From Ophiura sarsii (Eukaryota > Echinodermata > Ophiuroidea > Amphilepidida > Ophiuridae): DNA of 64,000 nt. Where the stretch lies: positions 10,373,109-10,437,108 of the forward strand of contig CM069452.1 of NCBI GenBank assembly GCA_035610835.1, given 5' to 3'. Positions within the stretch are counted from its first letter, which is position 1. The number at the start of each line of letters is the position of its first letter. The translations under genes and the position numbers were made by a program. Shown here piece by piece: positions 25,743 through 56,525 of the stretch. The notes under the pieces were generated by a model that was not told the DNA's origin, searched no databases, and worked only from the letters and a program-made list of their open reading frames with translations.

Positions 25743-27124
25743 CTGTAGACAAGAATCATGAAAACAAGCAGTTATTACGAAAGATTGATACACCCCTAAC
25801 TAAACAACACACAAATTGTTGTGTCCACCTATACAAAGAAATATAGACTTGTTGTACAGCAGAATCAACAAAAGGATAATTAAAACATGACATCAAAATG
25901 TATCTGTGTCATGAATATTAAATTTGCTTTGCCTTAACTCATTAAAAGGTCTCTACATTATGTAATACATAAAGTCCCAACCTGAAACAGGGTAAGAAAT
26001 TTATAAGTTGTAATGATCAATTCATGAAGAAAAAAAGTATAAATAAATTAATTATCCCTAAGGACAACAAAAATAAATGGTTGTGTTGCCATCAGCGACC
26101 AACCCTTAAATTGTATAAACTACATGTAGGGTCACATTTTCTTTTTTCTTTCAACTTTTTTTTAAATTATTATTATTTTTTTAAATTTAAATTTGATCTT
26201 TAAATTAATGTCTAAATGTTACTATTTCTTGCGTGAAATGAATTTAAAGTAAGCTTAAATAAATGGTTTTAGACTATTATCACACTAGAAACATTAGTTA
26301 AATTGACTTAGGGCCTACATGTACACCAATTTTGTCTCAATTTATGCATAAACCATTTATTTTTAGCCAAGAAAAAAAAAATTCTGACTGACCGACCCAA
26401 CTTTAATTTTTTAGCATTTTGAGGGCAACACACAACTGGGTTTTTAGGCCTAATTTGGCAATGAATTTTGCCATGTATTTTTAGGCATTATGGATTCTTG
26501 GATACCTTCATACTAAGACAAAAAAGTGATATTGATGGGTTGATGGATCTTGCTGGCTTCTGTTAAAAATGACACTTTTGTTATTTTGTTATGTTTAATA
26601 TTAAATGTTATTCTATACCCAATTCTATTGATTTTGGTGTCAAATTGTGTTATTTTGAAATCAATATTTGTAAGAAATGGATGGGTTTTTTTAATATATA
26701 TTAAAGTGTGAGGGCGCTTTCTTTAGCCATACACCTACTCGATATAATCTTTCATTTTTTTTTCTTTAGCTAATCAGCTCAAAGACGGCATTCACAAAAG
26801 TTTATTCTGAAAATCTGAGCTCATAATTAACACCTTTTCGTTTTGACTGTGACCCATTTATTTTAGTATTTTCATGCTCAGGGTATGAACAGGGCTGTCA
26901 ACTTTTGGGATTTGCTGGGAGGGAGCAAGGCATAAGATAAGCAGGCGCTGGGCGATTTTTACCCCTTGGTCCTTTTGCCATAGCGCCTGGTAATGCTGAA
27001 AAACCGAGCGCTGATATTTTGTCCAAACCAGCGCCCGTTGACGATTGCGAAGCTTGCCCAAGACTATCTAAAGTGACGGGAAAGTTCTTTTATAGCGCAA
27101 ATTCCATCCAAAATGGCCGCCATA
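25743..27124. other. AT-rich non-coding region
   Basis: Contains T-rich and A-rich runs (about 26140-26200) and nothing periodic. At 26930-27050 GCGCTGG/CAGCGCCC words occur in both orientations, possibly an old element edge. No gene is supported. Confidence 0.45.
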
Positions 27125-27712
27125 CAGGGGCCCAAAAATTCAAATGACTTTAATTAAGCTAAAAAGCACACCAAATTTTTCGGCTGAGCACAAGGATTCC
27201 GAAAAAGTATGTTTGGTTAACGAGTTATGGGGTAAAACGTAAAAAGGTCGTTGACCTTTGCATATGGGGTCAAAATTTAAACTTGCTCGGATTTTGAAAA
27301 ACAATATCTCAAATTGTTCGTCTGATTGCAAGGATTCCAGAAATGATAGCTTTTACCACCTAGAGTGTCTGTTGTACCTTATAAAGGGGTCAAAAGGTCA
27401 GATTCTATATAGGGCAGTGTACCTTGACCTTTTGACCTGCACAAAATATTCCCGGTGGTAAAAAAACACCTATTTCTGGAATCCTTGTGATCATACGAAC
27501 AATATGAGATATTGTTTTTCCAAATCGGAGCAAGTTTAAATTTTGACCCCATATATGCAAAGGTCAACGACCTTTTTACGTTTTACCCGATAACTTGTTA
27601 ACCAAACATTGGAAGTAGGGCAAACTATACTTTTTCGGAATCCTTGTGCTCAGCCGAACAATTTGGTGTGCTTTTCAGCTTAATTAAAGTCATTTAAAAT
27701 TTTGGGCCCCTG
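27125..27712. mobile_element. Near-complete palindromic MITE, 588 bp, TA target site
   Basis: The left end CAGGGGCCCAAAAATT follows TA (27123-27124) and the right end AATTTTGGGCCCCTG precedes TA (27713-27714). Inverted similarity runs almost to the centre (about 27418), with arms of nearly 290 bp: GTCAAAATTTAAACTTGCTC near 27270 faces GAGCAAGTTTAAATTTTGAC near 27528, and GGATTCCAGAAATGATAG near 27331 faces the complement near 27470. Opposite-strand frames of about 62-67 codons are mirror images through the palindrome and are not genes. TA sites and CAGGGG ends fit a Tc1/mariner-type fold-back element. Confidence 0.85.
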
Positions 27713-27752
27713 TATGGCCAATTCACTATATTGTAGGGAGTTGATATTATAT

Positions 27753-27852
27753 NNNNNNNNNNNNNNNNNNNNNNNNNNNNNNNNNNNNNNNNNNNNNNNN
27801 NNNNNNNNNNNNNNNNNNNNNNNNNNNNNNNNNNNNNNNNNNNNNNNNNNNN
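27753..27852. other. 100-base assembly gap (N)
   Basis: Exactly 100 N characters, the usual placeholder for a gap of unknown length. It lies 40 bp beyond the 588-bp palindrome, where read assembly probably failed. Continuity across this point is not proven. Confidence 1.
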
Positions 27853-32843: not shown

Positions 32844-34046
32844 TAGGATGTATCAACAAAATTAAGACTCTGTTTCATGACGGTGTAATTCTTATTATAA
32901 TCATTGGAGCATAACCAATTCGATATTGGGGTTCGTTGTCAGTGCCAATCATCAACTTCAGGTCGAAACCAAATTTACGTAATAATGATTAACTCGGCAT
33001 GTTTTTACTAACACCTGTGCAATTATACTGTTAACTTTGTTGTCAGCTCGATTAGCCTATCATATCTACTTATAGATGACTAATCATGACACGCTACAGG
33101 TTGGGTTATAGTCATATCTTATCGTGCGTTTCCAACTGATGTACCAACACGAACAGTCCTAAAGAGGACACTCTTCCCGTATAGGTTTTAGCATGGTGAC
33201 AAGTAATTGGACAAAAAGTGCACCCTTTCTTCTCAAACTTGAGTCTTATATTCTTACATTATCTCATCTATATAAATCTACACAATAACATCACTTTTCA
33301 GTGTTTAGGATAAATCTCTCCATCGTCGTTACCCTATATCTTTTTCAAATTGTTCAACAGATCAACAGTTTTTAACTGTGTTAACAAGATGTCCGTGCAA
33401 TACATGTCGGGCGTAACTTATTGTGATCAATTCATAATACAGAAATGAGGCTTTTAGGTAATCAGCGGAATTTGTTTTTCTAATTTTTTGACAACCTGTA
33501 TAATATAATCGGGCAATTTGAATGAATTGTTCCTTTCTACCAGGAAGGTATGTTTATAAACTTCAGTATTTATTGTGAACAAATACAACATTTAAATAGT
33601 TGTCTTAAATGGACACAGAATACATAGTTATTGACACATTTTGATCACCCTGTATTTTTGTTTGACAAATAATTAACCAGTTTGAATTATATTTGACTGG
33701 ACGGCCTTACTTTTGGCTTCTCAAACCCGGAGTTCAATTCTTATTTAAATACACTACGTATAAATAAACTACGAAGCATACAGTAAATTTCATTTCATTG
33801 TAATATTTCTTTTGCTACACCCTATATATTTCATAAGTCACCCAGTATACTGGAACAAAATTTGATATTTCTAAGCTTTGATATCTTAACTTTCTAACAA
33901 TGTATTCTTTTACACACTTGGTTATCTTGTTAACAATTAGATTTATTGACTTGAACTTGGTATCGCTAAAAAGACCAGGTCAATAGGTTGTGTGAAATAT
34001 GCTATTAGAAACTGCATTGAAACCAATACATTGAGTGGTGCACTGC
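32844..34046. other. Unique flank left of the duplicated segment
   Basis: AT-rich DNA. ATCACCCTGTATTTTTG near 33646 and ACAACCTGTATAATATAATC near 33491 resemble single Tc1/mariner-type ends without partners. No gene is seen. The last bases, GAGTGGTGCACTG, abut the left copy of the 1,951-bp duplicate. Confidence 0.5.
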
Positions 34047-35997
34047 TAAACAATTTATACTCAAAGTTACCATGCATTTCCTTTTCTGATTCATAAGATG
34101 TAACCATTCAGCATGGGTAAAAGGAAATATATGGACAGCAGAACACATGGTTCACTCCCAAAATTGAGAGATTCTGTGGTATGTGATGACGGACTGTTTG
34201 AGTTTGACAATGATTTAATATCATGAATATGTGAATTATTTGCCACTGCGTAGTGCATTATATTTCACCGTGTGTATGGATAAATATGGGGATACCAATT
34301 ATGTTTGCAGCTGTGATTGGCTGACAGCGTTGTGTGTGATAAACATGGTCTCTATGAACCAACTGAATCAAAGTTTACTTCTAGCCTTATCACACGCTAT
34401 TTTTAGTTGGCACAGTTTCAAATGCACGCTGTATCCCTGAAGTGACCTTGCTAGCAATTCAGTTAGATTACAAACCATAATCTCTAGAAGGCATCGGCAC
34501 TGGGGATAGTCAATGAATGGCGTAGTCAAATGTACTTGTGAATGAATAAGTGCTCAAAGTGGTATTATACTTCCCTCGCGGGATGTAAAAGATGTGACCT
34601 GTAGCATTGACTAATCAGACACGTTTTTCATGATGCACGGTTAAGCAAAACCCCATCTTCAGTTGACATCTGGCTGCCTCATTTGCAGGTTAATAATTTG
34701 ACAAAACGCGGGAATCATCATTTATAATTGGACAGGTGGTAGGTATCTGGGCAATTAATTCAGTCTTCGTGCTAGACATGGAGACTCGACAGGTAGTTAG
34801 TCAGGAAATAATATTAAGTAAGGCTGGAATATATGTAACCGATGCATGACTTATAAATTACCGTTACAACCTTTTGTATACACCTTCTTGAATGAGAAAA
34901 TTGCAAAAAACTCATATTTTTCAAACGGTATGAATAAAAGTGGGCTTAATTGTATATGATTGCACCACGTCTCTTACTTAACAATGCAATTATTTGATAT
35001 GTGTTGCAGCTTTATAATCACACTTATATAAAATGAAACAAATTCTATACATTATATGACATCGTTATGAATTATTGTGATAACAGGATTCGAAGGCTGG
35101 TTAGAGGTTACTTGAATATAATGGTGTAATAATCAAAGATACTGAACACGCGAATTAACCAGGGAATGCGCCGGCCTGTGCTAAGTTTATTAGTATCGTC
35201 AGTTTCAAAGGATAAAGATAGCCTTTTCAACAATTCGAATCTGCGCTAAGGGTAAAATAAACCGATAGACCCTCTTTTCTGGGTAAAAATTGAAAAGACA
35301 TTAAGCATAACGATTTTAAGGCATTCAATCACAGGTTCGTCATTAAGCGATCTTAATAAGATAAGCACCGGGACATGTACATCTTTGGTGTGATTTTTGG
35401 GATGGGATGCTGGGAAAGTACGTCTTGGTAAAGAAAATGTAAAGTAAAGAGAGCGCTGGAACAGGGATACGTACGTCTTCATGTGGTCTAGGAAGAGAAC
35501 GCCGGAACGGGGAAAGGTACGCCTTGGTGTGATCTTTCAAAGGAACGCTAAAAACAGGGAATCGTGTCTTTGAGCAATTAGCAAAGGAAGCACTGAAACA
35601 GGGAAATGTACGTCTTGATGTAATCTTTCAAGGGAGCGCTGGAACAGGGGAGCGCTGGAACAGCTAACCGTGCGTTATCGGAAAATGTTTAAAGGGCATA
35701 ATGGAAAAAGTAAACTAATTAAGTAAGGTGATTTATCCATGACCGGCAAGTTCATCACGAGTTCATAGCTCGCGTAGTATTTCATGTTACGCGTCATCAA
35801 ATTTATAACAACCTATACAATTCCGGGAAGATGCCATTTCTTCTTAATGTTTGTCAATTTTAATACGATTCTTCTCCTTTTTTTAATTGGACTAAACTAC
35901 ATCCACCATCGAGTTTGATGGTCATTGGTCATTGTCACAATATATAAAGCCCTTATGATGATCGTTACCTATTTTATCAGTCTTTTATGAATTAGAA
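34047..35997. repeat. 1,951-bp direct repeat, left copy
   Basis: Recurs at 56841-58791 with a constant offset of 22,794 and no difference in the stretches compared. It begins TAAACAATTTATACTCAAAG and ends TTTTATGAATTAGAA. Its ends are not TG...CA, and no reverse transcriptase, integrase or primer-binding site is nearby, so it is not an ordinary LTR. It is not coding as far as I can tell. The left flank of this copy and the right flank of the other copy look like the original unduplicated context, with the 1,475-bp array in between. Confidence 0.95.
35383..35670. repeat. Degenerate ~60-70-bp minisatellite in the duplicate (left)
   Basis: Irregular repeats of GGGAAAGGTACGTCTTG, GTGTGATCTTTCAAGGGA and GCGCTGGAACAGGG, about four units. 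The exact counterpart is at 58177-58464. Minus-strand frames reading it are rejected as genes. Confidence 0.7.
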
Positions 35998-36513
35998 TCA
36001 AGGCCTACCACTATCTATTTTGATGATGCATGCATTATGATCAACATATCAACCCTTTATTGCATATCCACATAATTTTACTCTGATAATGTGCATTATC
36101 CACAGCTTATCGGTTTTTCATGCTGTTTTGGGCGGACCACACTAGATGCTAGCGAGTCACCATTACTCAATAGTCCTAGTGATCCTATACTTTGTTTTAT
36201 CACCCAGCTCATCGTTTTTATCTAAAAATGTTCGAGTTTGGGAGTCTGCTACGCAATAGAAGCCATGCTTCCGTGCCTAACCGATTATCTAGTATTCAAA
36301 ATACTATTACCCGATACTACATTATCAGCCATATTTACTAATTACAATACCCATGCAATGTACCGATATGTTATTATTATTTAATGATCTAGTATTCCAA
36401 TATACTATTAACCCGATAATGCATCATCATCATCATAGATATTATACTATCATAAACTGGGGCCTACCAGTGTAGAATTACTGATATCGGCAATTTACTA
36501 CATAAAACAGATT

Positions 36514-36524
36514 GCTTCGAGTCC
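36514..36524 (+). promoter_or_regulatory. B-box-like motif in the 1,475-bp unit
   Basis: GCTTCGAGTCC differs from the pol III B-box consensus GGTTCGANTCC at one position. The upstream A-box candidate is weak. Listed as a low-confidence alternative promoter element. Confidence 0.2.
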
Positions 36525-37107
36525 CTCCTCGTCATAAACCTAACAGCTGAATATCATCAACATATTCAATATTTTAAGACTATTTAACCACGGCATTCTA
36601 CCAAGGCCTATCCATATCTATATCATAAATAATATTTATTATTATATTACATTGTAAAGGATGGCCTATATCCATTTGCCTGGTTATAGTTACGTACTGT
36701 TTGTTCTGACATACTATCTGCAGATAACCTGCGTAAAGTCACGGCATTTTATCAATATGCTAATTGAATTCATATCATAACAACTTCAACTCGAAGTCTA
36801 CGCAAATACATCATAATATCTTGTTCTGTATCAACATCAATACGAACAATTGCTTGTTTTACGTCAGTATTTAACTTTATTTACCAACGGTCTTTACCCA
36901 CCCATGATTACTTGCTATATCGTCATTCAGACTTCTATACCTAACAAGGCCCGCCATGTTTGGTAGGCCTAGTCTGAAGACGTATATGACAAACAATCAC
37001 TTAGACCGGTTTTACTTGACCACTCAAGCAATACAATAGAATAACGATTTGTTTATGCGTCGTCATAGTACCAGTTGTAACTGGAATTCTCTGTTGCCAC
37101 GGCCTAA

Positions 37108-37115
37108 TATAAAAG
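37108..37115 (+). promoter_or_regulatory. TATA box in the 1,475-bp unit (first copy)
   Basis: TATAAAAG, a full TATA-box match, is followed within 25 bp by a CACGTG E-box (ACCACGTGAC) and lies about 240 bp before the ribozyme on the same strand. It repeats every 1,475 bp in all full units. A pol II start near 37140 would be expected if it works. This is the best promoter candidate for transcription of the array. Confidence 0.45.
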
Positions 37116-37350
37116 CCACGCACGCACCACGTGACAACATGCTGGCTATCTTGTAGATAGTCTATAGATATCATTCACATCAGTCCGAGCATTCATTTAA
37201 ATAACATCATAATTTGAAAGCTAAGCAGCATGCAACATTATGCCTACATCAGTAGGCCTATATCCAATATAATGTTGTTGCTTTGCCTGCTTTTAAACGA
37301 CAAATTAGTCATGTCATTGCTCTATCTGTTAAATATCTACTTCCTCTACC

Positions 37351-37403
37351 GCCTCTGATGAGGATCTCACTCTAACTATCAGAAGATCCGAAACTAGTCA
37401 GGC
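37351..37403 (+). ncRNA. Type I hammerhead ribozyme, unit 1
   Basis: In order: stem I 3' strand GCCT (37351-37354), core CTGATGA (37355-37361), stem II GGATCT (37362-37367), 16-nt loop, AGATCC (37384-37389), GAA, then A15.1-C15.2, TA, G16.2-T16.1, C17 (37399), and stem I 5' strand AGGC (37400-37403). Every invariant core base is present, and the G10.1-C11.1 and C15.2-G16.2 pairs are intact. Cleavage is predicted between C37399 and A37400. Helix III is only 2 bp with a TA loop, but ACTAGT is self-complementary, so two transcripts (or two units of one transcript) could pair over 6 bp as a dimeric hammerhead. CTAC (37346-37349) and GTAG (37417-37420) could extend stem I beyond an internal loop. 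Type I hammerheads with tiny helix III are known in Penelope-like elements and metazoan retrozymes. Confidence 0.85.
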
Positions 37404-38825
37404 TATTTTATCCGACGTAGCTTAATCTATACTTATGTACCACCATGCGCACGTGTAATTCTACAGGTTTAATCAAGGCCTACCACTATCTATTTTGATG
37501 ATGCATGCATTATGATCAACATATCAACCCTTTATTGCATATCCACATAATTTTACTCTGATAATGTGCATTATCCACAGCTTATCGGTTTTTCATGCTG
37601 TTTTGGGCGGACCACACTAGATGCTAGCGAGTCACCATTACTCAATAGTCCTAGTGATCCTATACTTTGTTTTATCACCCAGCTCATCGTTTTTATCTAA
37701 AAATGTTCGAGTTTGGGAGTCTGTTACGCAATAGAAGCCATGCTTCCGTGCCTAACCGATTATCTAGTATTCAAAATACTATTACCCGATACTACATTAT
37801 CAGCCATATTTACTAATTACAATACCCATGCAATGTACCGATATGTTATTATTATTTAATGATCTAGTATTCCAATATACTATTAACCCGATAATGCATC
37901 ATCATCATCATAGATATTATACTATCATAAACTGGGGCCTACCAGTGTAGAATTACTGATATCGGCAATTTACTACATAAAACAGATTGCTTCGAGTCCC
38001 TCCTCGTCATAAACCTAACAGCTGAATATCATCAACATATTCAATATTTTAAGACTATTTAACCACGGCATTCTACCAAGGCCTATCCATATCTATATCA
38101 TAAATAATATTTATTATTATATTACATTGTAAAGGATGGCCTATATCCATTTGCCTGGTTATAGTTACGTACTGTTTGTTCTGACATACTATCTGCAGAT
38201 AACCTGCGTAAAGTCACGGCATTTTATCAATATGCTAATTGAATTCATATCATAACAACTTCAACTCGAAGTCTACGCAAATACATCATAATATCTTGTT
38301 CTGTATCAACATCAATACGAACAATTGCTTGTTTTACGTCAGTATTTAACTTTATTTACCAACGGTCTTTACCCACCCATGATTACTTGCTATATCGTCA
38401 TTCAGACTTCTATACCTAACAAGGCCCGCCATGTTTGGTAGGCCTAGTCTGAAGACGTATATGACAAACAATCACTTAGACCGGTTTTACTTGACCACTC
38501 AAGCAATACAATAGAATAACGATTTGTTTATGCGTCGTCATAGTACCAGTTGTAACTGGAATTCTCTGTTGCCACGGCCTAATATAAAAGCCACGCACGC
38601 ACCACGTGACAACATGCTGGCTATCTTGTAGATAGTCTATAGATATCATTCACATCAGTCCGAGCATTCATTTAAATAACATCATAATTTGAAAGCTAAG
38701 CAGCATGCAACATTATGCCTACATCAGTAGGCCTATATCCAATATAATGTTGTTGCTTTGCCTGCTTTTAAACGACAAATTAGTCATGTCATTGCTCTAT
38801 CTGTTAAATATCTACTTCCTCTACC

Positions 38826-38878
38826 GCCTCTGATGAGGATCTCACTCTAACTATCAGAAGATCCGAAACTAGTCAGGC
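38826..38878 (+). ncRNA. Type I hammerhead ribozyme, unit 2
   Basis: Same sequence as unit 1, shifted by 1,475. Predicted cleavage is after C38874. This is the unit that carries the neighbouring C-to-T change at 37724, outside the ribozyme. Confidence 0.85.
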
Positions 38879-40300
38879 TATTTTATCCGACGTAGCTTAA
38901 TCTATACTTATGTACCACCATGCGCACGTGTAATTCTACAGGTTTAATCAAGGCCTACCACTATCTATTTTGATGATGCATGCATTATGATCAACATATC
39001 AACCCTTTATTGCATATCCACATAATTTTACTCTGATAATGTGCATTATCCACAGCTTATCGGTTTTTCATGCTGTTTTGGGCGGACCACACTAGATGCT
39101 AGCGAGTCACCATTACTCAATAGTCCTAGTGATCCTATACTTTGTTTTATCACCCAGCTCATCGTTTTTATCTAAAAATGTTCGAGTTTGGGAGTCTGCT
39201 ACGCAATAGAAGCCATGCTTCCGTGCCTAACCGATTATCTAGTATTCAAAATACTATTACCCGATACTACATTATCAGCCATATTTACTAATTACAATAC
39301 CCATGCAATGTACCGATATGTTATTATTATTTAATGATCTAGTATTCCAATATACTATTAACCCGATAATGCATCATCATCATCATAGATATTATACTAT
39401 CATAAACTGGGGCCTACCAGTGTAGAATTACTGATATCGGCAATTTACTACATAAAACAGATTGCTTCGAGTCCCTCCTCGTCATAAACCTAACAGCTGA
39501 ATATCATCAACATATTCAATATTTTAAGACTATTTAACCACGGCATTCTACCAAGGCCTATCCATATCTATATCATAAATAATATTTATTATTATATTAC
39601 ATTGTAAAGGATGGCCTATATCCATTTGCCTGGTTATAGTTACGTACTGTTTGTTCTGACATACTATCTGCAGATAACCTGCGTAAAGTCACGGCATTTT
39701 ATCAATATGCTAATTGAATTCATATCATAACAACTTCAACTCGAAGTCTACGCAAATACATCATAATATCTTGTTCTGTATCAACATCAATACGAACAAT
39801 TGCTTGTTTTACGTCAGTATTTAACTTTATTTACCAACGGTCTTTACCCACCCATGATTACTTGCTATATCGTCATTCAGACTTCTATACCTAACAAGGC
39901 CCGCCATGTTTGGTAGGCCTAGTCTGAAGACGTATATGACAAACAATCACTTAGACCGGTTTTACTTGACCACTCAAGCAATACAATAGAATAACGATTT
40001 GTTTATGCGTCGTCATAGTACCAGTTGTAACTGGAATTCTCTGTTGCCACGGCCTAATATAAAAGCCACGCACGCACCACGTGACAACATGCTGGCTATC
40101 TTGTAGATAGTCTATAGATATCATTCACATCAGTCCGAGCATTCATTTAAATAACATCATAATTTGAAAGCTAAGCAGCATGCAACATTATGCCTACATC
40201 AGTAGGCCTATATCCAATATAATGTTGTTGCTTTGCCTGCTTTTAAACGACAAATTAGTCATGTCATTGCTCTATCTGTTAAATATCTACTTCCTCTACC

Positions 40301-40353
40301 GCCTCTGATGAGGATCTCACTCTAACTATCAGAAGATCCGAAACTAGTCAGGC
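40301..40353 (+). ncRNA. Type I hammerhead ribozyme, unit 3
   Basis: Identical core and stems; predicted cleavage after C40349. Confidence 0.85.
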
Positions 40354-41775
40354 TATTTTATCCGACGTAGCTTAATCTATACTTATGTACCACCATGCGC
40401 ACGTGTAATTCTACAGGTTTAATCAAGGCCTACCACTATCTATTTTGATGATGCATGCATTATGATCAACATATCAACCCTTTATTGCATATCCACATAA
40501 TTTTACTCTGATAATGTGCATTATCCACAGCTTATCGGTTTTTCATGCTGTTTTGGGCGGACCACACTAGATGCTAGCGAGTCACCATTACTCAATAGTC
40601 CTAGTGATCCTATACTTTGTTTTATCACCCAGCTCATCGTTTTTATCTAAAAATGTTCGAGTTTGGGAGTCTGCTACGCAATAGAAGCCATGCTTCCGTG
40701 CCTAACCGATTATCTAGTATTCAAAATACTATTACCCGATACTACATTATCAGCCATATTTACTAATTACAATACCCATGCAATGTACCGATATGTTATT
40801 ATTATTTAATGATCTAGTATTCCAATATACTATTAACCCGATAATGCATCATCATCATCATAGATATTATACTATCATAAACTGGGGCCTACCAGTGTAG
40901 AATTACTGATATCGGCAATTTACTACATAAAACAGATTGCTTCGAGTCCCTCCTCGTCATAAACCTAACAGCTGAATATCATCAACATATTCAATATTTT
41001 AAGACTATTTAACCACGGCATTCTACCAAGGCCTATCCATATCTATATCATAAATAATATTTATTATTATATTACATTGTAAAGGATGGCCTATATCCAT
41101 TTGCCTGGTTATAGTTACGTACTGTTTGTTCTGACATACTATCTGCAGATAACCTGCGTAAAGTCACGGCATTTTATCAATATGCTAATTGAATTCATAT
41201 CATAACAACTTCAACTCGAAGTCTACGCAAATACATCATAATATCTTGTTCTGTATCAACATCAATACGAACAATTGCTTGTTTTACGTCAGTATTTAAC
41301 TTTATTTACCAACGGTCTTTACCCACCCATGATTACTTGCTATATCGTCATTCAGACTTCTATACCTAACAAGGCCCGCCATGTTTGGTAGGCCTAGTCT
41401 GAAGACGTATATGACAAACAATCACTTAGACCGGTTTTACTTGACCACTCAAGCAATACAATAGAATAACGATTTGTTTATGCGTCGTCATAGTACCAGT
41501 TGTAACTGGAATTCTCTGTTGCCACGGCCTAATATAAAAGCCACGCACGCACCACGTGACAACATGCTGGCTATCTTGTAGATAGTCTATAGATATCATT
41601 CACATCAGTCCGAGCATTCATTTAAATAACATCATAATTTGAAAGCTAAGCAGCATGCAACATTATGCCTACATCAGTAGGCCTATATCCAATATAATGT
41701 TGTTGCTTTGCCTGCTTTTAAACGACAAATTAGTCATGTCATTGCTCTATCTGTTAAATATCTACTTCCTCTACC

Positions 41776-41828
41776 GCCTCTGATGAGGATCTCACTCTAA
41801 CTATCAGAAGATCCGAAACTAGTCAGGC
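41776..41828 (+). ncRNA. Type I hammerhead ribozyme, unit 4
   Basis: Identical core and stems; predicted cleavage after C41824. Confidence 0.85.
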
Positions 41829-43250
41829 TATTTTATCCGACGTAGCTTAATCTATACTTATGTACCACCATGCGCACGTGTAATTCTACAGGTTTAATCA
41901 AGGCCTACCACTATCTATTTTGATGATGCATGCATTATGATCAACATATCAACCCTTTATTGCATATCCACATAATTTTACTCTGATAATGTGCATTATC
42001 CACAGCTTATCGGTTTTTCATGCTGTTTTGGGCGGACCACACTAGATGCTAGCGAGTCACCATTACTCAATAGTCCTAGTGATCCTATACTTTGTTTTAT
42101 CACCCAGCTCATCGTTTTTATCTAAAAATGTTCGAGTTTGGGAGTCTGCTACGCAATAGAAGCCATGCTTCCGTGCCTAACCGATTATCTAGTATTCAAA
42201 ATACTATTACCCGATACTACATTATCAGCCATATTTACTAATTACAATACCCATGCAATGTACCGATATGTTATTATTATTTAATGATCTAGTATTCCAA
42301 TATACTATTAACCCGATAATGCATCATCATCATCATAGATATTATACTATCATAAACTGGGGCCTACCAGTGTAGAATTACTGATATCGGCAATTTACTA
42401 CATAAAACAGATTGCTTCGAGTCCCTCCTCGTCATAAACCTAACAGCTGAATATCATCAACATATTCAATATTTTAAGACTATTTAACCACGGCATTCTA
42501 CCAAGGCCTATCCATATCTATATCATAAATAATATTTATTATTATATTACATTGTAAAGGATGGCCTATATCCATTTGCCTGGTTATAGTTACGTACTGT
42601 TTGTTCTGACATACTATCTGCAGATAACCTGCGTAAAGTCACGGCATTTTATCAATATGCTAATTGAATTCATATCATAACAACTTCAACTCGAAGTCTA
42701 CGCAAATACATCATAATATCTTGTTCTGTATCAACATCAATACGAACAATTGCTTGTTTTACGTCAGTATTTAACTTTATTTACCAACGGTCTTTACCCA
42801 CCCATGATTACTTGCTATATCGTCATTCAGACTTCTATACCTAACAAGGCCCGCCATGTTTGGTAGGCCTAGTCTGAAGACGTATATGACAAACAATCAC
42901 TTAGACCGGTTTTACTTGACCACTCAAGCAATACAATAGAATAACGATTTGTTTATGCGTCGTCATAGTACCAGTTGTAACTGGAATTCTCTGTTGCCAC
43001 GGCCTAATATAAAAGCCACGCACGCACCACGTGACAACATGCTGGCTATCTTGTAGATAGTCTATAGATATCATTCACATCAGTCCGAGCATTCATTTAA
43101 ATAACATCATAATTTGAAAGCTAAGCAGCATGCAACATTATGCCTACATCAGTAGGCCTATATCCAATATAATGTTGTTGCTTTGCCTGCTTTTAAACGA
43201 CAAATTAGTCATGTCATTGCTCTATCTGTTAAATATCTACTTCCTCTACC

Positions 43251-43303
43251 GCCTCTGATGAGGATCTCACTCTAACTATCAGAAGATCCGAAACTAGTCA
43301 GGC
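43251..43303 (+). ncRNA. Type I hammerhead ribozyme, unit 5
   Basis: Identical core and stems; predicted cleavage after C43299. Confidence 0.85.
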
Positions 43304-44725
43304 TATTTTATCCGACGTAGCTTAATCTATACTTATGTACCACCATGCGCACGTGTAATTCTACAGGTTTAATCAAGGCCTACCACTATCTATTTTGATG
43401 ATGCATGCATTATGATCAACATATCAACCCTTTATTGCATATCCACATAATTTTACTCTGATAATGTGCATTATCCACAGCTTATCGGTTTTTCATGCTG
43501 TTTTGGGCGGACCACACTAGATGCTAGCGAGTCACCATTACTCAATAGTCCTAGTGATCCTATACTTTGTTTTATCACCCAGCTCATCGTTTTTATCTAA
43601 AAATGTTCGAGTTTGGGAGTCTGCTACGCAATAGAAGCCATGCTTCCGTGCCTAACCGATTATCTAGTATTCAAAATACTATTACCCGATACTACATTAT
43701 CAGCCATATTTACTAATTACAATACCCATGCAATGTACCGATATGTTATTATTATTTAATGATCTAGTATTCCAATATACTATTAACCCGATAATGCATC
43801 ATCATCATCATAGATATTATACTATCATAAACTGGGGCCTACCAGTGTAGAATTACTGATATCGGCAATTTACTACATAAAACAGATTGCTTCGAGTCCC
43901 TCCTCGTCATAAACCTAACAGCTGAATATCATCAACATATTCAATATTTTAAGACTATTTAACCACGGCATTCTACCAAGGCCTATCCATATCTATATCA
44001 TAAATAATATTTATTATTATATTACATTGTAAAGGATGGCCTATATCCATTTGCCTGGTTATAGTTACGTACTGTTTGTTCTGACATACTATCTGCAGAT
44101 AACCTGCGTAAAGTCACGGCATTTTATCAATATGCTAATTGAATTCATATCATAACAACTTCAACTCGAAGTCTACGCAAATACATCATAATATCTTGTT
44201 CTGTATCAACATCAATACGAACAATTGCTTGTTTTACGTCAGTATTTAACTTTATTTACCAACGGTCTTTACCCACCCATGATTACTTGCTATATCGTCA
44301 TTCAGACTTCTATACCTAACAAGGCCCGCCATGTTTGGTAGGCCTAGTCTGAAGACGTATATGACAAACAATCACTTAGACCGGTTTTACTTGACCACTC
44401 AAGCAATACAATAGAATAACGATTTGTTTATGCGTCGTCATAGTACCAGTTGTAACTGGAATTCTCTGTTGCCACGGCCTAATATAAAAGCCACGCACGC
44501 ACCACGTGACAACATGCTGGCTATCTTGTAGATAGTCTATAGATATCATTCACATCAGTCCGAGCATTCATTTAAATAACATCATAATTTGAAAGCTAAG
44601 CAGCATGCAACATTATGCCTACATCAGTAGGCCTATATCCAATATAATGTTGTTGCTTTGCCTGCTTTTAAACGACAAATTAGTCATGTCATTGCTCTAT
44701 CTGTTAAATATCTACTTCCTCTACC

Positions 44726-44778
44726 GCCTCTGATGAGGATCTCACTCTAACTATCAGAAGATCCGAAACTAGTCAGGC
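44726..44778 (+). ncRNA. Type I hammerhead ribozyme, unit 6
   Basis: Identical core and stems; predicted cleavage after C44774. Confidence 0.85.
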
Positions 44779-46200
44779 TATTTTATCCGACGTAGCTTAA
44801 TCTATACTTATGTACCACCATGCGCACGTGTAATTCTACAGGTTTAATCAAGGCCTACCACTATCTATTTTGATGATGCATGCATTATGATCAACATATC
44901 AACCCTTTATTGCATATCCACATAATTTTACTCTGATAATGTGCATTATCCACAGCTTATCGGTTTTTCATGCTGTTTTGGGCGGACCACACTAGATGCT
45001 AGCGAGTCACCATTACTCAATAGTCCTAGTGATCCTATACTTTGTTTTATCACCCAGCTCATCGTTTTTATCTAAAAATGTTCGAGTTTGGGAGTCTGCT
45101 ACGCAATAGAAGCCATGCTTCCGTGCCTAACCGATTATCTAGTATTCAAAATACTATTACCCGATACTACATTATCAGCCATATTTACTAATTACAATAC
45201 CCATGCAATGTACCGATATGTTATTATTATTTAATGATCTAGTATTCCAATATACTATTAACCCGATAATGCATCATCATCATCATAGATATTATACTAT
45301 CATAAACTGGGGCCTACCAGTGTAGAATTACTGATATCGGCAATTTACTACATAAAACAGATTGCTTCGAGTCCCTCCTCGTCATAAACCTAACAGCTGA
45401 ATATCATCAACATATTCAATATTTTAAGACTATTTAACCACGGCATTCTACCAAGGCCTATCCATATCTATATCATAAATAATATTTATTATTATATTAC
45501 ATTGTAAAGGATGGCCTATATCCATTTGCCTGGTTATAGTTACGTACTGTTTGTTCTGACATACTATCTGCAGATAACCTGCGTAAAGTCACGGCATTTT
45601 ATCAATATGCTAATTGAATTCATATCATAACAACTTCAACTCGAAGTCTACGCAAATACATCATAATATCTTGTTCTGTATCAACATCAATACGAACAAT
45701 TGCTTGTTTTACGTCAGTATTTAACTTTATTTACCAACGGTCTTTACCCACCCATGATTACTTGCTATATCGTCATTCAGACTTCTATACCTAACAAGGC
45801 CCGCCATGTTTGGTAGGCCTAGTCTGAAGACGTATATGACAAACAATCACTTAGACCGGTTTTACTTGACCACTCAAGCAATACAATAGAATAACGATTT
45901 GTTTATGCGTCGTCATAGTACCAGTTGTAACTGGAATTCTCTGTTGCCACGGCCTAATATAAAAGCCACGCACGCACCACGTGACAACATGCTGGCTATC
46001 TTGTAGATAGTCTATAGATATCATTCACATCAGTCCGAGCATTCATTTAAATAACATCATAATTTGAAAGCTAAGCAGCATGCAACATTATGCCTACATC
46101 AGTAGGCCTATATCCAATATAATGTTGTTGCTTTGCCTGCTTTTAAACGACAAATTAGTCATGTCATTGCTCTATCTGTTAAATATCTACTTCCTCTACC

Positions 46201-46253
46201 GCCTCTGATGAGGATCTCACTCTAACTATCAGAAGATCCGAAACTAGTCAGGC
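46201..46253 (+). ncRNA. Type I hammerhead ribozyme, unit 7
   Basis: Identical core and stems; predicted cleavage after C46249. Confidence 0.85.
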
Positions 46254-47675
46254 TATTTTATCCGACGTAGCTTAATCTATACTTATGTACCACCATGCGC
46301 ACGTGTAATTCTACAGGTTTAATCAAGGCCTACCACTATCTATTTTGATGATGCATGCATTATGATCAACATATCAACCCTTTATTGCATATCCACATAA
46401 TTTTACTCTGATAATGTGCATTATCCACAGCTTATCGGTTTTTCATGCTGTTTTGGGCGGACCACACTAGATGCTAGCGAGTCACCATTACTCAATAGTC
46501 CTAGTGATCCTATACTTTGTTTTATCACCCAGCTCATCGTTTTTATCTAAAAATGTTCGAGTTTGGGAGTCTGCTACGCAATAGAAGCCATGCTTCCGTG
46601 CCTAACCGATTATCTAGTATTCAAAATACTATTACCCGATACTACATTATCAGCCATATTTACTAATTACAATACCCATGCAATGTACCGATATGTTATT
46701 ATTATTTAATGATCTAGTATTCCAATATACTATTAACCCGATAATGCATCATCATCATCATAGATATTATACTATCATAAACTGGGGCCTACCAGTGTAG
46801 AATTACTGATATCGGCAATTTACTACATAAAACAGATTGCTTCGAGTCCCTCCTCGTCATAAACCTAACAGCTGAATATCATCAACATATTCAATATTTT
46901 AAGACTATTTAACCACGGCATTCTACCAAGGCCTATCCATATCTATATCATAAATAATATTTATTATTATATTACATTGTAAAGGATGGCCTATATCCAT
47001 TTGCCTGGTTATAGTTACGTACTGTTTGTTCTGACATACTATCTGCAGATAACCTGCGTAAAGTCACGGCATTTTATCAATATGCTAATTGAATTCATAT
47101 CATAACAACTTCAACTCGAAGTCTACGCAAATACATCATAATATCTTGTTCTGTATCAACATCAATACGAACAATTGCTTGTTTTACGTCAGTATTTAAC
47201 TTTATTTACCAACGGTCTTTACCCACCCATGATTACTTGCTATATCGTCATTCAGACTTCTATACCTAACAAGGCCCGCCATGTTTGGTAGGCCTAGTCT
47301 GAAGACGTATATGACAAACAATCACTTAGACCGGTTTTACTTGACCACTCAAGCAATACAATAGAATAACGATTTGTTTATGCGTCGTCATAGTACCAGT
47401 TGTAACTGGAATTCTCTGTTGCCACGGCCTAATATAAAAGCCACGCACGCACCACGTGACAACATGCTGGCTATCTTGTAGATAGTCTATAGATATCATT
47501 CACATCAGTCCGAGCATTCATTTAAATAACATCATAATTTGAAAGCTAAGCAGCATGCAACATTATGCCTACATCAGTAGGCCTATATCCAATATAATGT
47601 TGTTGCTTTGCCTGCTTTTAAACGACAAATTAGTCATGTCATTGCTCTATCTGTTAAATATCTACTTCCTCTACC

Positions 47676-47728
47676 GCCTCTGATGAGGATCTCACTCTAA
47701 CTATCAGAAGATCCGAAACTAGTCAGGC
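47676..47728 (+). ncRNA. Type I hammerhead ribozyme, unit 8
   Basis: Identical core and stems; predicted cleavage after C47724. Confidence 0.85.
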
Positions 47729-49150
47729 TATTTTATCCGACGTAGCTTAATCTATACTTATGTACCACCATGCGCACGTGTAATTCTACAGGTTTAATCA
47801 AGGCCTACCACTATCTATTTTGATGATGCATGCATTATGATCAACATATCAACCCTTTATTGCATATCCACATAATTTTACTCTGATAATGTGCATTATC
47901 CACAGCTTATCGGTTTTTCATGCTGTTTTGGGCGGACCACACTAGATGCTAGCGAGTCACCATTACTCAATAGTCCTAGTGATCCTATACTTTGTTTTAT
48001 CACCCAGCTCATCGTTTTTATCTAAAAATGTTCGAGTTTGGGAGTCTGCTACGCAATAGAAGCCATGCTTCCGTGCCTAACCGATTATCTAGTATTCAAA
48101 ATACTATTACCCGATACTACATTATCAGCCATATTTACTAATTACAATACCCATGCAATGTACCGATATGTTATTATTATTTAATGATCTAGTATTCCAA
48201 TATACTATTAACCCGATAATGCATCATCATCATCATAGATATTATACTATCATAAACTGGGGCCTACCAGTGTAGAATTACTGATATCGGCAATTTACTA
48301 CATAAAACAGATTGCTTCGAGTCCCTCCTCGTCATAAACCTAACAGCTGAATATCATCAACATATTCAATATTTTAAGACTATTTAACCACGGCATTCTA
48401 CCAAGGCCTATCCATATCTATATCATAAATAATATTTATTATTATATTACATTGTAAAGGATGGCCTATATCCATTTGCCTGGTTATAGTTACGTACTGT
48501 TTGTTCTGACATACTATCTGCAGATAACCTGCGTAAAGTCACGGCATTTTATCAATATGCTAATTGAATTCATATCATAACAACTTCAACTCGAAGTCTA
48601 CGCAAATACATCATAATATCTTGTTCTGTATCAACATCAATACGAACAATTGCTTGTTTTACGTCAGTATTTAACTTTATTTACCAACGGTCTTTACCCA
48701 CCCATGATTACTTGCTATATCGTCATTCAGACTTCTATACCTAACAAGGCCCGCCATGTTTGGTAGGCCTAGTCTGAAGACGTATATGACAAACAATCAC
48801 TTAGACCGGTTTTACTTGACCACTCAAGCAATACAATAGAATAACGATTTGTTTATGCGTCGTCATAGTACCAGTTGTAACTGGAATTCTCTGTTGCCAC
48901 GGCCTAATATAAAAGCCACGCACGCACCACGTGACAACATGCTGGCTATCTTGTAGATAGTCTATAGATATCATTCACATCAGTCCGAGCATTCATTTAA
49001 ATAACATCATAATTTGAAAGCTAAGCAGCATGCAACATTATGCCTACATCAGTAGGCCTATATCCAATATAATGTTGTTGCTTTGCCTGCTTTTAAACGA
49101 CAAATTAGTCATGTCATTGCTCTATCTGTTAAATATCTACTTCCTCTACC

Positions 49151-49203
49151 GCCTCTGATGAGGATCTCACTCTAACTATCAGAAGATCCGAAACTAGTCA
49201 GGC
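49151..49203 (+). ncRNA. Type I hammerhead ribozyme, unit 9
   Basis: Identical core and stems; predicted cleavage after C49199. Confidence 0.85.
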
Positions 49204-50625
49204 TATTTTATCCGACGTAGCTTAATCTATACTTATGTACCACCATGCGCACGTGTAATTCTACAGGTTTAATCAAGGCCTACCACTATCTATTTTGATG
49301 ATGCATGCATTATGATCAACATATCAACCCTTTATTGCATATCCACATAATTTTACTCTGATAATGTGCATTATCCACAGCTTATCGGTTTTTCATGCTG
49401 TTTTGGGCGGACCACACTAGATGCTAGCGAGTCACCATTACTCAATAGTCCTAGTGATCCTATACTTTGTTTTATCACCCAGCTCATCGTTTTTATCTAA
49501 AAATGTTCGAGTTTGGGAGTCTGCTACGCAATAGAAGCCATGCTTCCGTGCCTAACCGATTATCTAGTATTCAAAATACTATTACCCGATACTACATTAT
49601 CAGCCATATTTACTAATTACAATACCCATGCAATGTACCGATATGTTATTATTATTTAATGATCTAGTATTCCAATATACTATTAACCCGATAATGCATC
49701 ATCATCATCATAGATATTATACTATCATAAACTGGGGCCTACCAGTGTAGAATTACTGATATCGGCAATTTACTACATAAAACAGATTGCTTCGAGTCCC
49801 TCCTCGTCATAAACCTAACAGCTGAATATCATCAACATATTCAATATTTTAAGACTATTTAACCACGGCATTCTACCAAGGCCTATCCATATCTATATCA
49901 TAAATAATATTTATTATTATATTACATTGTAAAGGATGGCCTATATCCATTTGCCTGGTTATAGTTACGTACTGTTTGTTCTGACATACTATCTGCAGAT
50001 AACCTGCGTAAAGTCACGGCATTTTATCAATATGCTAATTGAATTCATATCATAACAACTTCAACTCGAAGTCTACGCAAATACATCATAATATCTTGTT
50101 CTGTATCAACATCAATACGAACAATTGCTTGTTTTACGTCAGTATTTAACTTTATTTACCAACGGTCTTTACCCACCCATGATTACTTGCTATATCGTCA
50201 TTCAGACTTCTATACCTAACAAGGCCCGCCATGTTTGGTAGGCCTAGTCTGAAGACGTATATGACAAACAATCACTTAGACCGGTTTTACTTGACCACTC
50301 AAGCAATACAATAGAATAACGATTTGTTTATGCGTCGTCATAGTACCAGTTGTAACTGGAATTCTCTGTTGCCACGGCCTAATATAAAAGCCACGCACGC
50401 ACCACGTGACAACATGCTGGCTATCTTGTAGATAGTCTATAGATATCATTCACATCAGTCCGAGCATTCATTTAAATAACATCATAATTTGAAAGCTAAG
50501 CAGCATGCAACATTATGCCTACATCAGTAGGCCTATATCCAATATAATGTTGTTGCTTTGCCTGCTTTTAAACGACAAATTAGTCATGTCATTGCTCTAT
50601 CTGTTAAATATCTACTTCCTCTACC

Positions 50626-50678
50626 GCCTCTGATGAGGATCTCACTCTAACTATCAGAAGATCCGAAACTAGTCAGGC
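50626..50678 (+). ncRNA. Type I hammerhead ribozyme, unit 10
   Basis: Identical core and stems; predicted cleavage after C50674. Confidence 0.85.
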
Positions 50679-52100
50679 TATTTTATCCGACGTAGCTTAA
50701 TCTATACTTATGTACCACCATGCGCACGTGTAATTCTACAGGTTTAATCAAGGCCTACCACTATCTATTTTGATGATGCATGCATTATGATCAACATATC
50801 AACCCTTTATTGCATATCCACATAATTTTACTCTGATAATGTGCATTATCCACAGCTTATCGGTTTTTCATGCTGTTTTGGGCGGACCACACTAGATGCT
50901 AGCGAGTCACCATTACTCAATAGTCCTAGTGATCCTATACTTTGTTTTATCACCCAGCTCATCGTTTTTATCTAAAAATGTTCGAGTTTGGGAGTCTGCT
51001 ACGCAATAGAAGCCATGCTTCCGTGCCTAACCGATTATCTAGTATTCAAAATACTATTACCCGATACTACATTATCAGCCATATTTACTAATTACAATAC
51101 CCATGCAATGTACCGATATGTTATTATTATTTAATGATCTAGTATTCCAATATACTATTAACCCGATAATGCATCATCATCATCATAGATATTATACTAT
51201 CATAAACTGGGGCCTACCAGTGTAGAATTACTGATATCGGCAATTTACTACATAAAACAGATTGCTTCGAGTCCCTCCTCGTCATAAACCTAACAGCTGA
51301 ATATCATCAACATATTCAATATTTTAAGACTATTTAACCACGGCATTCTACCAAGGCCTATCCATATCTATATCATAAATAATATTTATTATTATATTAC
51401 ATTGTAAAGGATGGCCTATATCCATTTGCCTGGTTATAGTTACGTACTGTTTGTTCTGACATACTATCTGCAGATAACCTGCGTAAAGTCACGGCATTTT
51501 ATCAATATGCTAATTGAATTCATATCATAACAACTTCAACTCGAAGTCTACGCAAATACATCATAATATCTTGTTCTGTATCAACATCAATACGAACAAT
51601 TGCTTGTTTTACGTCAGTATTTAACTTTATTTACCAACGGTCTTTACCCACCCATGATTACTTGCTATATCGTCATTCAGACTTCTATACCTAACAAGGC
51701 CCGCCATGTTTGGTAGGCCTAGTCTGAAGACGTATATGACAAACAATCACTTAGACCGGTTTTACTTGACCACTCAAGCAATACAATAGAATAACGATTT
51801 GTTTATGCGTCGTCATAGTACCAGTTGTAACTGGAATTCTCTGTTGCCACGGCCTAATATAAAAGCCACGCACGCACCACGTGACAACATGCTGGCTATC
51901 TTGTAGATAGTCTATAGATATCATTCACATCAGTCCGAGCATTCATTTAAATAACATCATAATTTGAAAGCTAAGCAGCATGCAACATTATGCCTACATC
52001 AGTAGGCCTATATCCAATATAATGTTGTTGCTTTGCCTGCTTTTAAACGACAAATTAGTCATGTCATTGCTCTATCTGTTAAATATCTACTTCCTCTACC

Positions 52101-52153
52101 GCCTCTGATGAGGATCTCACTCTAACTATCAGAAGATCCGAAACTAGTCAGGC
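52101..52153 (+). ncRNA. Type I hammerhead ribozyme, unit 11
   Basis: Identical core and stems; predicted cleavage after C52149. Confidence 0.85.
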
Positions 52154-53575
52154 TATTTTATCCGACGTAGCTTAATCTATACTTATGTACCACCATGCGC
52201 ACGTGTAATTCTACAGGTTTAATCAAGGCCTACCACTATCTATTTTGATGATGCATGCATTATGATCAACATATCAACCCTTTATTGCATATCCACATAA
52301 TTTTACTCTGATAATGTGCATTATCCACAGCTTATCGGTTTTTCATGCTGTTTTGGGCGGACCACACTAGATGCTAGCGAGTCACCATTACTCAATAGTC
52401 CTAGTGATCCTATACTTTGTTTTATCACCCAGCTCATCGTTTTTATCTAAAAATGTTCGAGTTTGGGAGTCTGCTACGCAATAGAAGCCATGCTTCCGTG
52501 CCTAACCGATTATCTAGTATTCAAAATACTATTACCCGATACTACATTATCAGCCATATTTACTAATTACAATACCCATGCAATGTACCGATATGTTATT
52601 ATTATTTAATGATCTAGTATTCCAATATACTATTAACCCGATAATGCATCATCATCATCATAGATATTATACTATCATAAACTGGGGCCTACCAGTGTAG
52701 AATTACTGATATCGGCAATTTACTACATAAAACAGATTGCTTCGAGTCCCTCCTCGTCATAAACCTAACAGCTGAATATCATCAACATATTCAATATTTT
52801 AAGACTATTTAACCACGGCATTCTACCAAGGCCTATCCATATCTATATCATAAATAATATTTATTATTATATTACATTGTAAAGGATGGCCTATATCCAT
52901 TTGCCTGGTTATAGTTACGTACTGTTTGTTCTGACATACTATCTGCAGATAACCTGCGTAAAGTCACGGCATTTTATCAATATGCTAATTGAATTCATAT
53001 CATAACAACTTCAACTCGAAGTCTACGCAAATACATCATAATATCTTGTTCTGTATCAACATCAATACGAACAATTGCTTGTTTTACGTCAGTATTTAAC
53101 TTTATTTACCAACGGTCTTTACCCACCCATGATTACTTGCTATATCGTCATTCAGACTTCTATACCTAACAAGGCCCGCCATGTTTGGTAGGCCTAGTCT
53201 GAAGACGTATATGACAAACAATCACTTAGACCGGTTTTACTTGACCACTCAAGCAATACAATAGAATAACGATTTGTTTATGCGTCGTCATAGTACCAGT
53301 TGTAACTGGAATTCTCTGTTGCCACGGCCTAATATAAAAGCCACGCACGCACCACGTGACAACATGCTGGCTATCTTGTAGATAGTCTATAGATATCATT
53401 CACATCAGTCCGAGCATTCATTTAAATAACATCATAATTTGAAAGCTAAGCAGCATGCAACATTATGCCTACATCAGTAGGCCTATATCCAATATAATGT
53501 TGTTGCTTTGCCTGCTTTTAAACGACAAATTAGTCATGTCATTGCTCTATCTGTTAAATATCTACTTCCTCTACC

Positions 53576-53628
53576 GCCTCTGATGAGGATCTCACTCTAA
53601 CTATCAGAAGATCCGAAACTAGTCAGGC
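53576..53628 (+). ncRNA. Type I hammerhead ribozyme, unit 12
   Basis: Identical core and stems; predicted cleavage after C53624. Confidence 0.85.
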
Positions 53629-55050
53629 TATTTTATCCGACGTAGCTTAATCTATACTTATGTACCACCATGCGCACGTGTAATTCTACAGGTTTAATCA
53701 AGGCCTACCACTATCTATTTTGATGATGCATGCATTATGATCAACATATCAACCCTTTATTGCATATCCACATAATTTTACTCTGATAATGTGCATTATC
53801 CACAGCTTATCGGTTTTTCATGCTGTTTTGGGCGGACCACACTAGATGCTAGCGAGTCACCATTACTCAATAGTCCTAGTGATCCTATACTTTGTTTTAT
53901 CACCCAGCTCATCGTTTTTATCTAAAAATGTTCGAGTTTGGGAGTCTGCTACGCAATAGAAGCCATGCTTCCGTGCCTAACCGATTATCTAGTATTCAAA
54001 ATACTATTACCCGATACTACATTATCAGCCATATTTACTAATTACAATACCCATGCAATGTACCGATATGTTATTATTATTTAATGATCTAGTATTCCAA
54101 TATACTATTAACCCGATAATGCATCATCATCATCATAGATATTATACTATCATAAACTGGGGCCTACCAGTGTAGAATTACTGATATCGGCAATTTACTA
54201 CATAAAACAGATTGCTTCGAGTCCCTCCTCGTCATAAACCTAACAGCTGAATATCATCAACATATTCAATATTTTAAGACTATTTAACCACGGCATTCTA
54301 CCAAGGCCTATCCATATCTATATCATAAATAATATTTATTATTATATTACATTGTAAAGGATGGCCTATATCCATTTGCCTGGTTATAGTTACGTACTGT
54401 TTGTTCTGACATACTATCTGCAGATAACCTGCGTAAAGTCACGGCATTTTATCAATATGCTAATTGAATTCATATCATAACAACTTCAACTCGAAGTCTA
54501 CGCAAATACATCATAATATCTTGTTCTGTATCAACATCAATACGAACAATTGCTTGTTTTACGTCAGTATTTAACTTTATTTACCAACGGTCTTTACCCA
54601 CCCATGATTACTTGCTATATCGTCATTCAGACTTCTATACCTAACAAGGCCCGCCATGTTTGGTAGGCCTAGTCTGAAGACGTATATGACAAACAATCAC
54701 TTAGACCGGTTTTACTTGACCACTCAAGCAATACAATAGAATAACGATTTGTTTATGCGTCGTCATAGTACCAGTTGTAACTGGAATTCTCTGTTGCCAC
54801 GGCCTAATATAAAAGCCACGCACGCACCACGTGACAACATGCTGGCTATCTTGTAGATAGTCTATAGATATCATTCACATCAGTCCGAGCATTCATTTAA
54901 ATAACATCATAATTTGAAAGCTAAGCAGCATGCAACATTATGCCTACATCAGTAGGCCTATATCCAATATAATGTTGTTGCTTTGCCTGCTTTTAAACGA
55001 CAAATTAGTCATGTCATTGCTCTATCTGTTAAATATCTACTTCCTCTACC

Positions 55051-55103
55051 GCCTCTGATGAGGATCTCACTCTAACTATCAGAAGATCCGAAACTAGTCA
55101 GGC
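55051..55103 (+). ncRNA. Type I hammerhead ribozyme, unit 13
   Basis: Identical core and stems; predicted cleavage after C55099. Confidence 0.85.
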
Positions 55104-56525
55104 TATTTTATCCGACGTAGCTTAATCTATACTTATGTACCACCATGCGCACGTGTAATTCTACAGGTTTAATCAAGGCCTACCACTATCTATTTTGATG
55201 ATGCATGCATTATGATCAACATATCAACCCTTTATTGCATATCCACATAATTTTACTCTGATAATGTGCATTATCCACAGCTTATCGGTTTTTCATGCTG
55301 TTTTGGGCGGACCACACTAGATGCTAGCGAGTCACCATTACTCAATAGTCCTAGTGATCCTATACTTTGTTTTATCACCCAGCTCATCGTTTTTATCTAA
55401 AAATGTTCGAGTTTGGGAGTCTGCTACGCAATAGAAGCCATGCTTCCGTGCCTAACCGATTATCTAGTATTCAAAATACTATTACCCGATACTACATTAT
55501 CAGCCATATTTACTAATTACAATACCCATGCAATGTACCGATATGTTATTATTATTTAATGATCTAGTATTCCAATATACTATTAACCCGATAATGCATC
55601 ATCATCATCATAGATATTATACTATCATAAACTGGGGCCTACCAGTGTAGAATTACTGATATCGGCAATTTACTACATAAAACAGATTGCTTCGAGTCCC
55701 TCCTCGTCATAAACCTAACAGCTGAATATCATCAACATATTCAATATTTTAAGACTATTTAACCACGGCATTCTACCAAGGCCTATCCATATCTATATCA
55801 TAAATAATATTTATTATTATATTACATTGTAAAGGATGGCCTATATCCATTTGCCTGGTTATAGTTACGTACTGTTTGTTCTGACATACTATCTGCAGAT
55901 AACCTGCGTAAAGTCACGGCATTTTATCAATATGCTAATTGAATTCATATCATAACAACTTCAACTCGAAGTCTACGCAAATACATCATAATATCTTGTT
56001 CTGTATCAACATCAATACGAACAATTGCTTGTTTTACGTCAGTATTTAACTTTATTTACCAACGGTCTTTACCCACCCATGATTACTTGCTATATCGTCA
56101 TTCAGACTTCTATACCTAACAAGGCCCGCCATGTTTGGTAGGCCTAGTCTGAAGACGTATATGACAAACAATCACTTAGACCGGTTTTACTTGACCACTC
56201 AAGCAATACAATAGAATAACGATTTGTTTATGCGTCGTCATAGTACCAGTTGTAACTGGAATTCTCTGTTGCCACGGCCTAATATAAAAGCCACGCACGC
56301 ACCACGTGACAACATGCTGGCTATCTTGTAGATAGTCTATAGATATCATTCACATCAGTCCGAGCATTCATTTAAATAACATCATAATTTGAAAGCTAAG
56401 CAGCATGCAACATTATGCCTACATCAGTAGGCCTATATCCAATATAATGTTGTTGCTTTGCCTGCTTTTAAACGACAAATTAGTCATGTCATTGCTCTAT
56501 CTGTTAAATATCTACTTCCTCTACC

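Follow-up and report, generated by a model that had tools for sequence, protein, structure and literature searches.

The window, meaning the whole 64,000-nt stretch of Ophiura sarsii DNA analysed here (assembly GCA_035610835.1, contig CM069452.1; all positions below use window numbering), contains a tandem array at 35996-56841 on the + strand, which consists of 14.13 copies of a 1,475-bp unit over 20,846 bp, with 36.3% GC. The array is enclosed by two perfect direct repeats of 1,952 bp, here called T, at 34046-35997 and 56840-58791, which the first-pass annotation of this DNA had missed; the right copy is 100% identical to the left. The first bases of the array overlap the left T by AA, and its last bases overlap the right T by CT. 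Nothing similar to the 1,475-bp unit was found in the rest of the window, and nothing similar to T elsewhere in it. Both T copies carry a 46-bp minisatellite (35447-35649 and 58241-58443). Two further satellite arrays lie at 1-2504 and 3957-7680, with units of about 174-176 bp and 213 bp, and a 66-nt inverted repeat (14341-14406 and 15061-15126, 86%, 654 nt apart) is possibly a nonautonomous transposon. A palindrome of ~600 bp at 27119-27718, with about 81% identity between it and its reverse complement, adjoins a scaffold gap of 100 N at 27753-27852. At 61089-62606 there is a LINE fragment, composed of an Exo_endo_phos open reading frame followed by a 199-aa open stretch at 62007-62606; its relatives are mostly unnamed records, and the named ones come from Branchiostoma belcheri, Leuciscus chuanchicus, and Heptranchias perlo, presumably a lancelet, a bony fish, and a shark. 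No tRNA or tmRNA was found in the window.

The 1,475-bp unit has no stop-to-stop stretch longer than 60 aa, and the ten longest of its 26 stop-to-stop fragments gave no Pfam match; judged from its sequence, the unit is noncoding. Its strands differ in composition, with 329 C against 207 G on the + strand, which is the strand that carries the hammerhead described below. The only base seen to vary among the units of the array is 37724, which is T in one unit and C at 13/13 equivalent positions (36249 to 55424).

All 14 full copies of the unit contain, on the + strand, the elements GCCT-CTGATGA-GGATCT-16 nt-AGATCC-GAAAC-TA-GTC-AGGC, the order of a type I hammerhead ribozyme. In the first complete motif, at 37351-37403, the 5' strand of stem I (GCCT, 37351-37354) pairs with AGGC at 37400-37403, the core CTGATGA occupies 37355-37361, and a 6-bp stem II (37362-37389) is formed by GGATCT at 37362-37367 and AGATCC at 37384-37389 around a 16-nt loop. 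The remaining part, at 37390-37399, consists of GAAAC (37390-37394), TA, and GTC (37397-37399) and provides the core GAA and a stem III of AC/GT. The first-pass annotation had named these elements and had counted 14 sites exactly 1,475 bp apart, and both statements are borne out: each element lies where it had been placed, and 14 identical copies occur at that spacing, with C3 positions from 37355 to 56530. These 14 identical copies count as one observation rather than fourteen, and their identity also means that covariation among array units is not measurable. A 15th match to the bare pattern, at 3460-3533, is without the stems. Stem III amounts to two pairs (A-U and C-G) closed by a 2-nt loop and is weak alone, and stem I has only 4 bp. 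Cleavage is expected after C37399, which we take from general hammerhead chemistry. No type II or III hammerhead was found in the window by descriptor; likewise, CTGANGA does not occur on the - strand of the unit, and neither strand of the unit gave a type II or III match.

How often would such a motif arise by chance? A loose descriptor (stem I of ≥4 bp, stem II of ≥4 bp, and stem III of ≥2 bp) gave 60 matches in 6,224 dinucleotide shuffles of the window collapsed to 42,579 nt, searched on both strands, and matches as strict as the observed motif (stem II of ≥6 bp, loop III of ≤6 nt) appeared 4 times in the same shuffles. Scaled to one 1,475-bp unit, these rates are about 3e-4 and 2e-5. An ordinary satellite carrying a chance hammerhead-like string would be favored by a loose match arising about once per 100 shuffled windows, by the unit being a single independent observation, and by the possibility that many other stretches of DNA had been read beforehand. 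Real sequences with the same core were used as controls. Exact-core scans with a 2-nt loop gave at least 120 viral matches, and those with the loop fixed as TA gave 39 prokaryotic matches, so that 159 were examined. Stems I and II of at least 3 bp occurred together in 0/159 (for the viral part, among the matches listed), stem II of ≥4 bp alone in 3 and stem I of ≥4 bp alone in 2. The three with stem II only (L025, L041, and L098) are in fact hammerheads whose helix III is longer, which lowers the true background from 159 to 156. The combination of both stems, absent in 159/159 other core matches listed, argues against the chance satellite. Counted from C3, the initial 18 bases of the motif have no match in viral contigs.

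Covariance models were brought to bear on the same question. At gathering score, Rfam matched nothing in the window, and over 36600-40200 it reported no family at E≤10. It also reported none at gathering score in seven control viral loci taken from pattern scans, though the descriptor shows hammerheads in L176, L191, L193, and L207; since Rfam missed these, its null result at gathering score is uninformative. Three viral contigs (L176, L192, and L237) have at least 4 hammerhead matches each, none of which is reported by Rfam at gathering score in L176. We then used two models trained on viral hammerheads, for which 391 viral-contig loci supplied 315 descriptor matches (277 distinct). R2 was built from alignment A1, comprising 66 type I hammerheads of viral contigs, and R1 from alignment A2, with 53 sequences and helix III removed. 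With filters off, R2 recovered every one of the 14 units with a score of 22.4 bits (E 2.1e-5; the E-values of both models are rough). This score carries a slight bias towards the motif, because R2 was not blind: its training sequences were picked by core, half of them through a pattern with a window-like GG/CC start of stem II. The runners-up in the window scored 12.8 bits outside the array and 12.5 bits in a 16-nt match to the - strand within the array. R1 gave 15.8 bits (E 0.013) for the motif; the next scores, all from matches of 16-20 nt, were 13.0 bits on the array's - strand and 12.0 bits elsewhere. Neither model found anything up to E 10 in the satellites at 1-2504 and 3957-7680.

The 97 exact-core control loci (821,391 bases) have the same core as the motif yet score below it with R2: their top score was 15.4 bits, away from the core match, and the best at a core match was 14.7 bits (L128), in a run with default filters, which can lose weak matches, whereas the window was run with filters off. 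The covariance-model check that the first-pass annotation had proposed therefore depends on the model, being negative with Rfam and positive with R2, and the type I architecture that it had described is recovered by the latter. With the covariance score well above the controls, we regard an ordinary satellite with a chance motif as improbable.

Folding predictions are less clear-cut. The best fold of the isolated motif keeps stems I and II and mispairs part of the core (-11.8 versus -8.7 kcal/mol). In the circular minimum-energy fold of the unit, the motif is a separate domain with all ten pairs of stems I and II, and three core bases (CUG) are mispaired in the lowest-energy folds of monomer and circle alike. 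With linear flanks of 20, 50, or 100 nt, the best fold never has both stems, and the probability of stem I falls from about 0.4 to 0.2. At flanks of 30 nt, the pairing probabilities were compared with those of 119 viral-contig hammerheads: that of stem I, 0.17, is at the median, and that of stem II, 0.31, at the lower tenth. Two motifs on one strand reach -21.5 as a double hammerhead versus -25.5 for the best fold. This mediocre folding in context is a further point for the chance satellite; overall, the predicted folds leave cleavage plausible but not assured, and it may be slow.

Is the unit as a whole unusually self-paired? Folded as a circle, the hammerhead strand has a z-score of -8.8 and the opposite strand one of -5.1 (60 shuffles), and 16 control segments (32 strands, 18 shuffles each) range from +4.1 to -13.5. 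Control values below -8.8 occur in a single segment, at 14001, on both of its strands; this segment holds the 66-nt inverted repeat. Since one control segment reached -13.5, the circular-fold z-score alone is not decisive. The value of that segment is probably owed to its inverted repeat: it is -13.5 as a circle and +0.8 with pairs limited to 80 nt. Under the same limit of 80 nt, the hammerhead strand has the lowest z-score of 34 strands, -5.3, the next being -3.7 (24 shuffles each).

Which known hammerhead repeats does this array resemble? The metazoan non-LTR retrozymes of coral, mussel, and axolotl, as portrayed in the accessible part of their description (PMC7229834), likewise carry one type I hammerhead in each unit and form tandem arrays (in coral, up to 62-mers), with a noncoding sequence of low GC (<50%, as here) and highly self-paired RNA, a property predicted here for the hammerhead strand. 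The same text reports that amphibian retrozymes have a weak helix III and are cleaved better as dimers, and the weak helix III of our motif would suit dimers in the same way; canonical retrozyme hammerheads have tertiary contacts between loops 1 and 2, but those of mussel also are without most of the conserved loop-contact bases. Metazoan retrozymes are further characterized by expression as linear and circular monomer RNA and by many dispersed copies in the genome of the host. In contrast, metazoan retrozyme units measure 150-450 bp in that text, so that the 1,475 bp found here are at least three times longer; the stem I of 4 bp and the terminal direct repeats of 1,952 bp are further differences (PMC7229834). 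Circular RNAs of 150 to over 1,000 nt are mentioned there in general terms, and tandem cDNA made from circular RNA is proposed, as an unproven route, for the spread of retrozymes. The first-pass annotation had seen in the array a retrozyme-like replicon; the type I hammerhead, the noncoding tandem arrangement, the low GC, and the self-pairing agree with this, and the unit size does not, lying outside the range in the accessible text (PMC7229834). With such a unit the array is not filed as a standard metazoan retrozyme, and from its sequence it looks like a retrozyme-like, long-unit variant.

Other hammerhead satellites show similar partial likeness. The Schistosoma mansoni W-element satellites also form tandem families, some with active type I hammerheads, but the four hammerhead families named in the part of the report available have units of 332-428 bp and do not include the families whose units measure 1.1-1.3 kb (PMC8490949). 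Newt satellite 2, in the portions of its literature consulted, is a satellite whose hammerhead is cut better in dimeric form owing to an extended helix III, and differs in its unit of about 330 bp (PMC6155905 and PMC7229834). Among literature titles and abstract openings, none was found that described a hammerhead tandem unit longer than 1 kb.

Penelope-like elements, which the first-pass annotation had offered as an alternative source, call for closer comparison. In excerpts of the relevant papers, tandem Penelope-like elements and Terminons are reported to carry minimal type I hammerheads in which helix III is almost absent (PMC6155905, PMC7761336, and PMC11167929), and our motif also has almost no helix III. 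The array might then be a deletion derivative, in which a pseudo-LTR kept the minimal hammerhead while the tandem copies lost the open reading frame. The reverse transcriptase and GIY-YIG domains of these elements are not found among the ten longest of the 26 unit fragments, however, and this origin thus receives no backing from Pfam; we consider it improbable.

The length of the unit also invites comparison with delta-like circular RNAs, which are close to 1.5 kb and bear hammerheads (PMC7936874). If a circular RNA of the delta-virus or viroid type had been copied into genomic DNA here, that would account for the hammerhead, the self-pairing, and a size near the 1,500-1,700 nt given in the accessible text for delta-like RNAs (PMC7936874). 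However, these RNAs are coding and rod-like, and those of toad and termite encode delta antigen and have type III hammerheads in both polarities (PMC7936874, as far as its available part goes), whereas the unit lacks any stretch longer than 60 aa, CTGANGA is missing from its - strand, and neither strand matches type II or III. A - strand ribozyme of a nonhammerhead kind is excluded by Rfam alone, the sensitivity of which is doubtful here. Such an origin is very hard to credit.

Another question concerns how the array came to lie between two copies of T. The bases just outside the two copies do not match, and the outer flanks differ. T was considered as a pair of LTRs and ruled out, as its ends are not TG/CA (by eye) and the outer flanks share no bases. 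No poly(A) or other tail is visible by eye at the ends of the array. The simplest reading is that a site X-T-Y became X-T-array-T-Y, in which case T is a candidate target-site duplication. A target duplication of 1,952 bp is far above the usual size for retroelements; retrozymes are recognized by target duplications of >4 bp without LTRs, and the direct repeats seen here are far longer than usual. Since the units differ at a single position and the T copies not at all, array and duplication look contemporaneous and young; the sequence suggests that a concatemer was inserted here recently and in a single event, duplicating a very long stretch of target.

Could this arrangement be a product of the assembly? 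Copy number or the duplication of T might be partly artifactual, through haplotypes or collapsed repeats, and the 100% identity of the T copies, the 100-N gap at 27753-27852, and the 20.8 kb of near-perfect repeats, a length that exceeds many sequencing reads, would be in keeping with that. Against it stand the private base at 37724 in one unit and the differing outer flanks of T, and we give an artifact little credence.

A DNA-level amplification deserves more weight, even if we think it unlikely. Here a one-unit DNA circle, or template switching onto it, would have been copied 14 times round at a break, and re-invasion upstream would have duplicated T; on this view the ribozyme, though possibly real, was not involved in the insertion. 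The two-base overlaps, the noninteger copy number, the near-perfect units, and the 1,952-bp duplication fit template switching no less than reverse transcription, and the lack of a visible tail at either array end also favors this route. This route leaves unexplained a good hammerhead in a strand-asymmetric, strongly self-paired unit. Given the two-base overlaps, the noninteger copy number, and the absence of a visible tail, RNA and DNA routes are not separable, and rolling-circle copying of DNA is about as compatible with the junctions as reverse transcription.

Taken together, the explanation that we prefer, and to which we give somewhat better than even chances, is a retrozyme-like, noncoding hammerhead repeat with a long unit, dimer-assisted cleavage, a circular form, and a single insertion event that duplicated T. 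If the + strand were transcribed by read-through, each unit of the RNA would bring its own type I hammerhead. Since its stem III has just two pairs, neighboring ribozymes would mostly act in pairs, joined through the palindrome ACUAGU (ACTAGT at 37393-37398 in the DNA), which allows a 6-bp stem III between two copies, and in this model the hammerheads probably cut as dimers. A cut after the residue equivalent to C37399 in each unit would release 1,475-nt monomers, and these could be circularized by an RNA ligase of the host. DNA copied over several rounds from one such circle would then have entered the site in one recent event, with host T duplicated. Transcription, cleavage, circularization, and the nature of the copied circle as RNA rather than DNA are steps that we infer. 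The most specific version of this explanation, in which a 1.5-kb hammerhead circular RNA replicon, exceeding known metazoan retrozymes three- to fourfold in size, inserted as a concatemer of ~20 kb by a single rolling reverse-transcription event and duplicated a target of ~2 kb, is tentative, and we think it doubtful as a whole.

If this version were true, the insertion of a ~20-kb concatemer would be a snapshot of a hammerhead satellite being seeded. The array, with both of its ends visible and a long direct repeat around it, is a candidate for a young insertion, and its junctions and the empty allele can be studied. It also bears on whether hammerhead repeats can carry more than 1 kb of passenger RNA.
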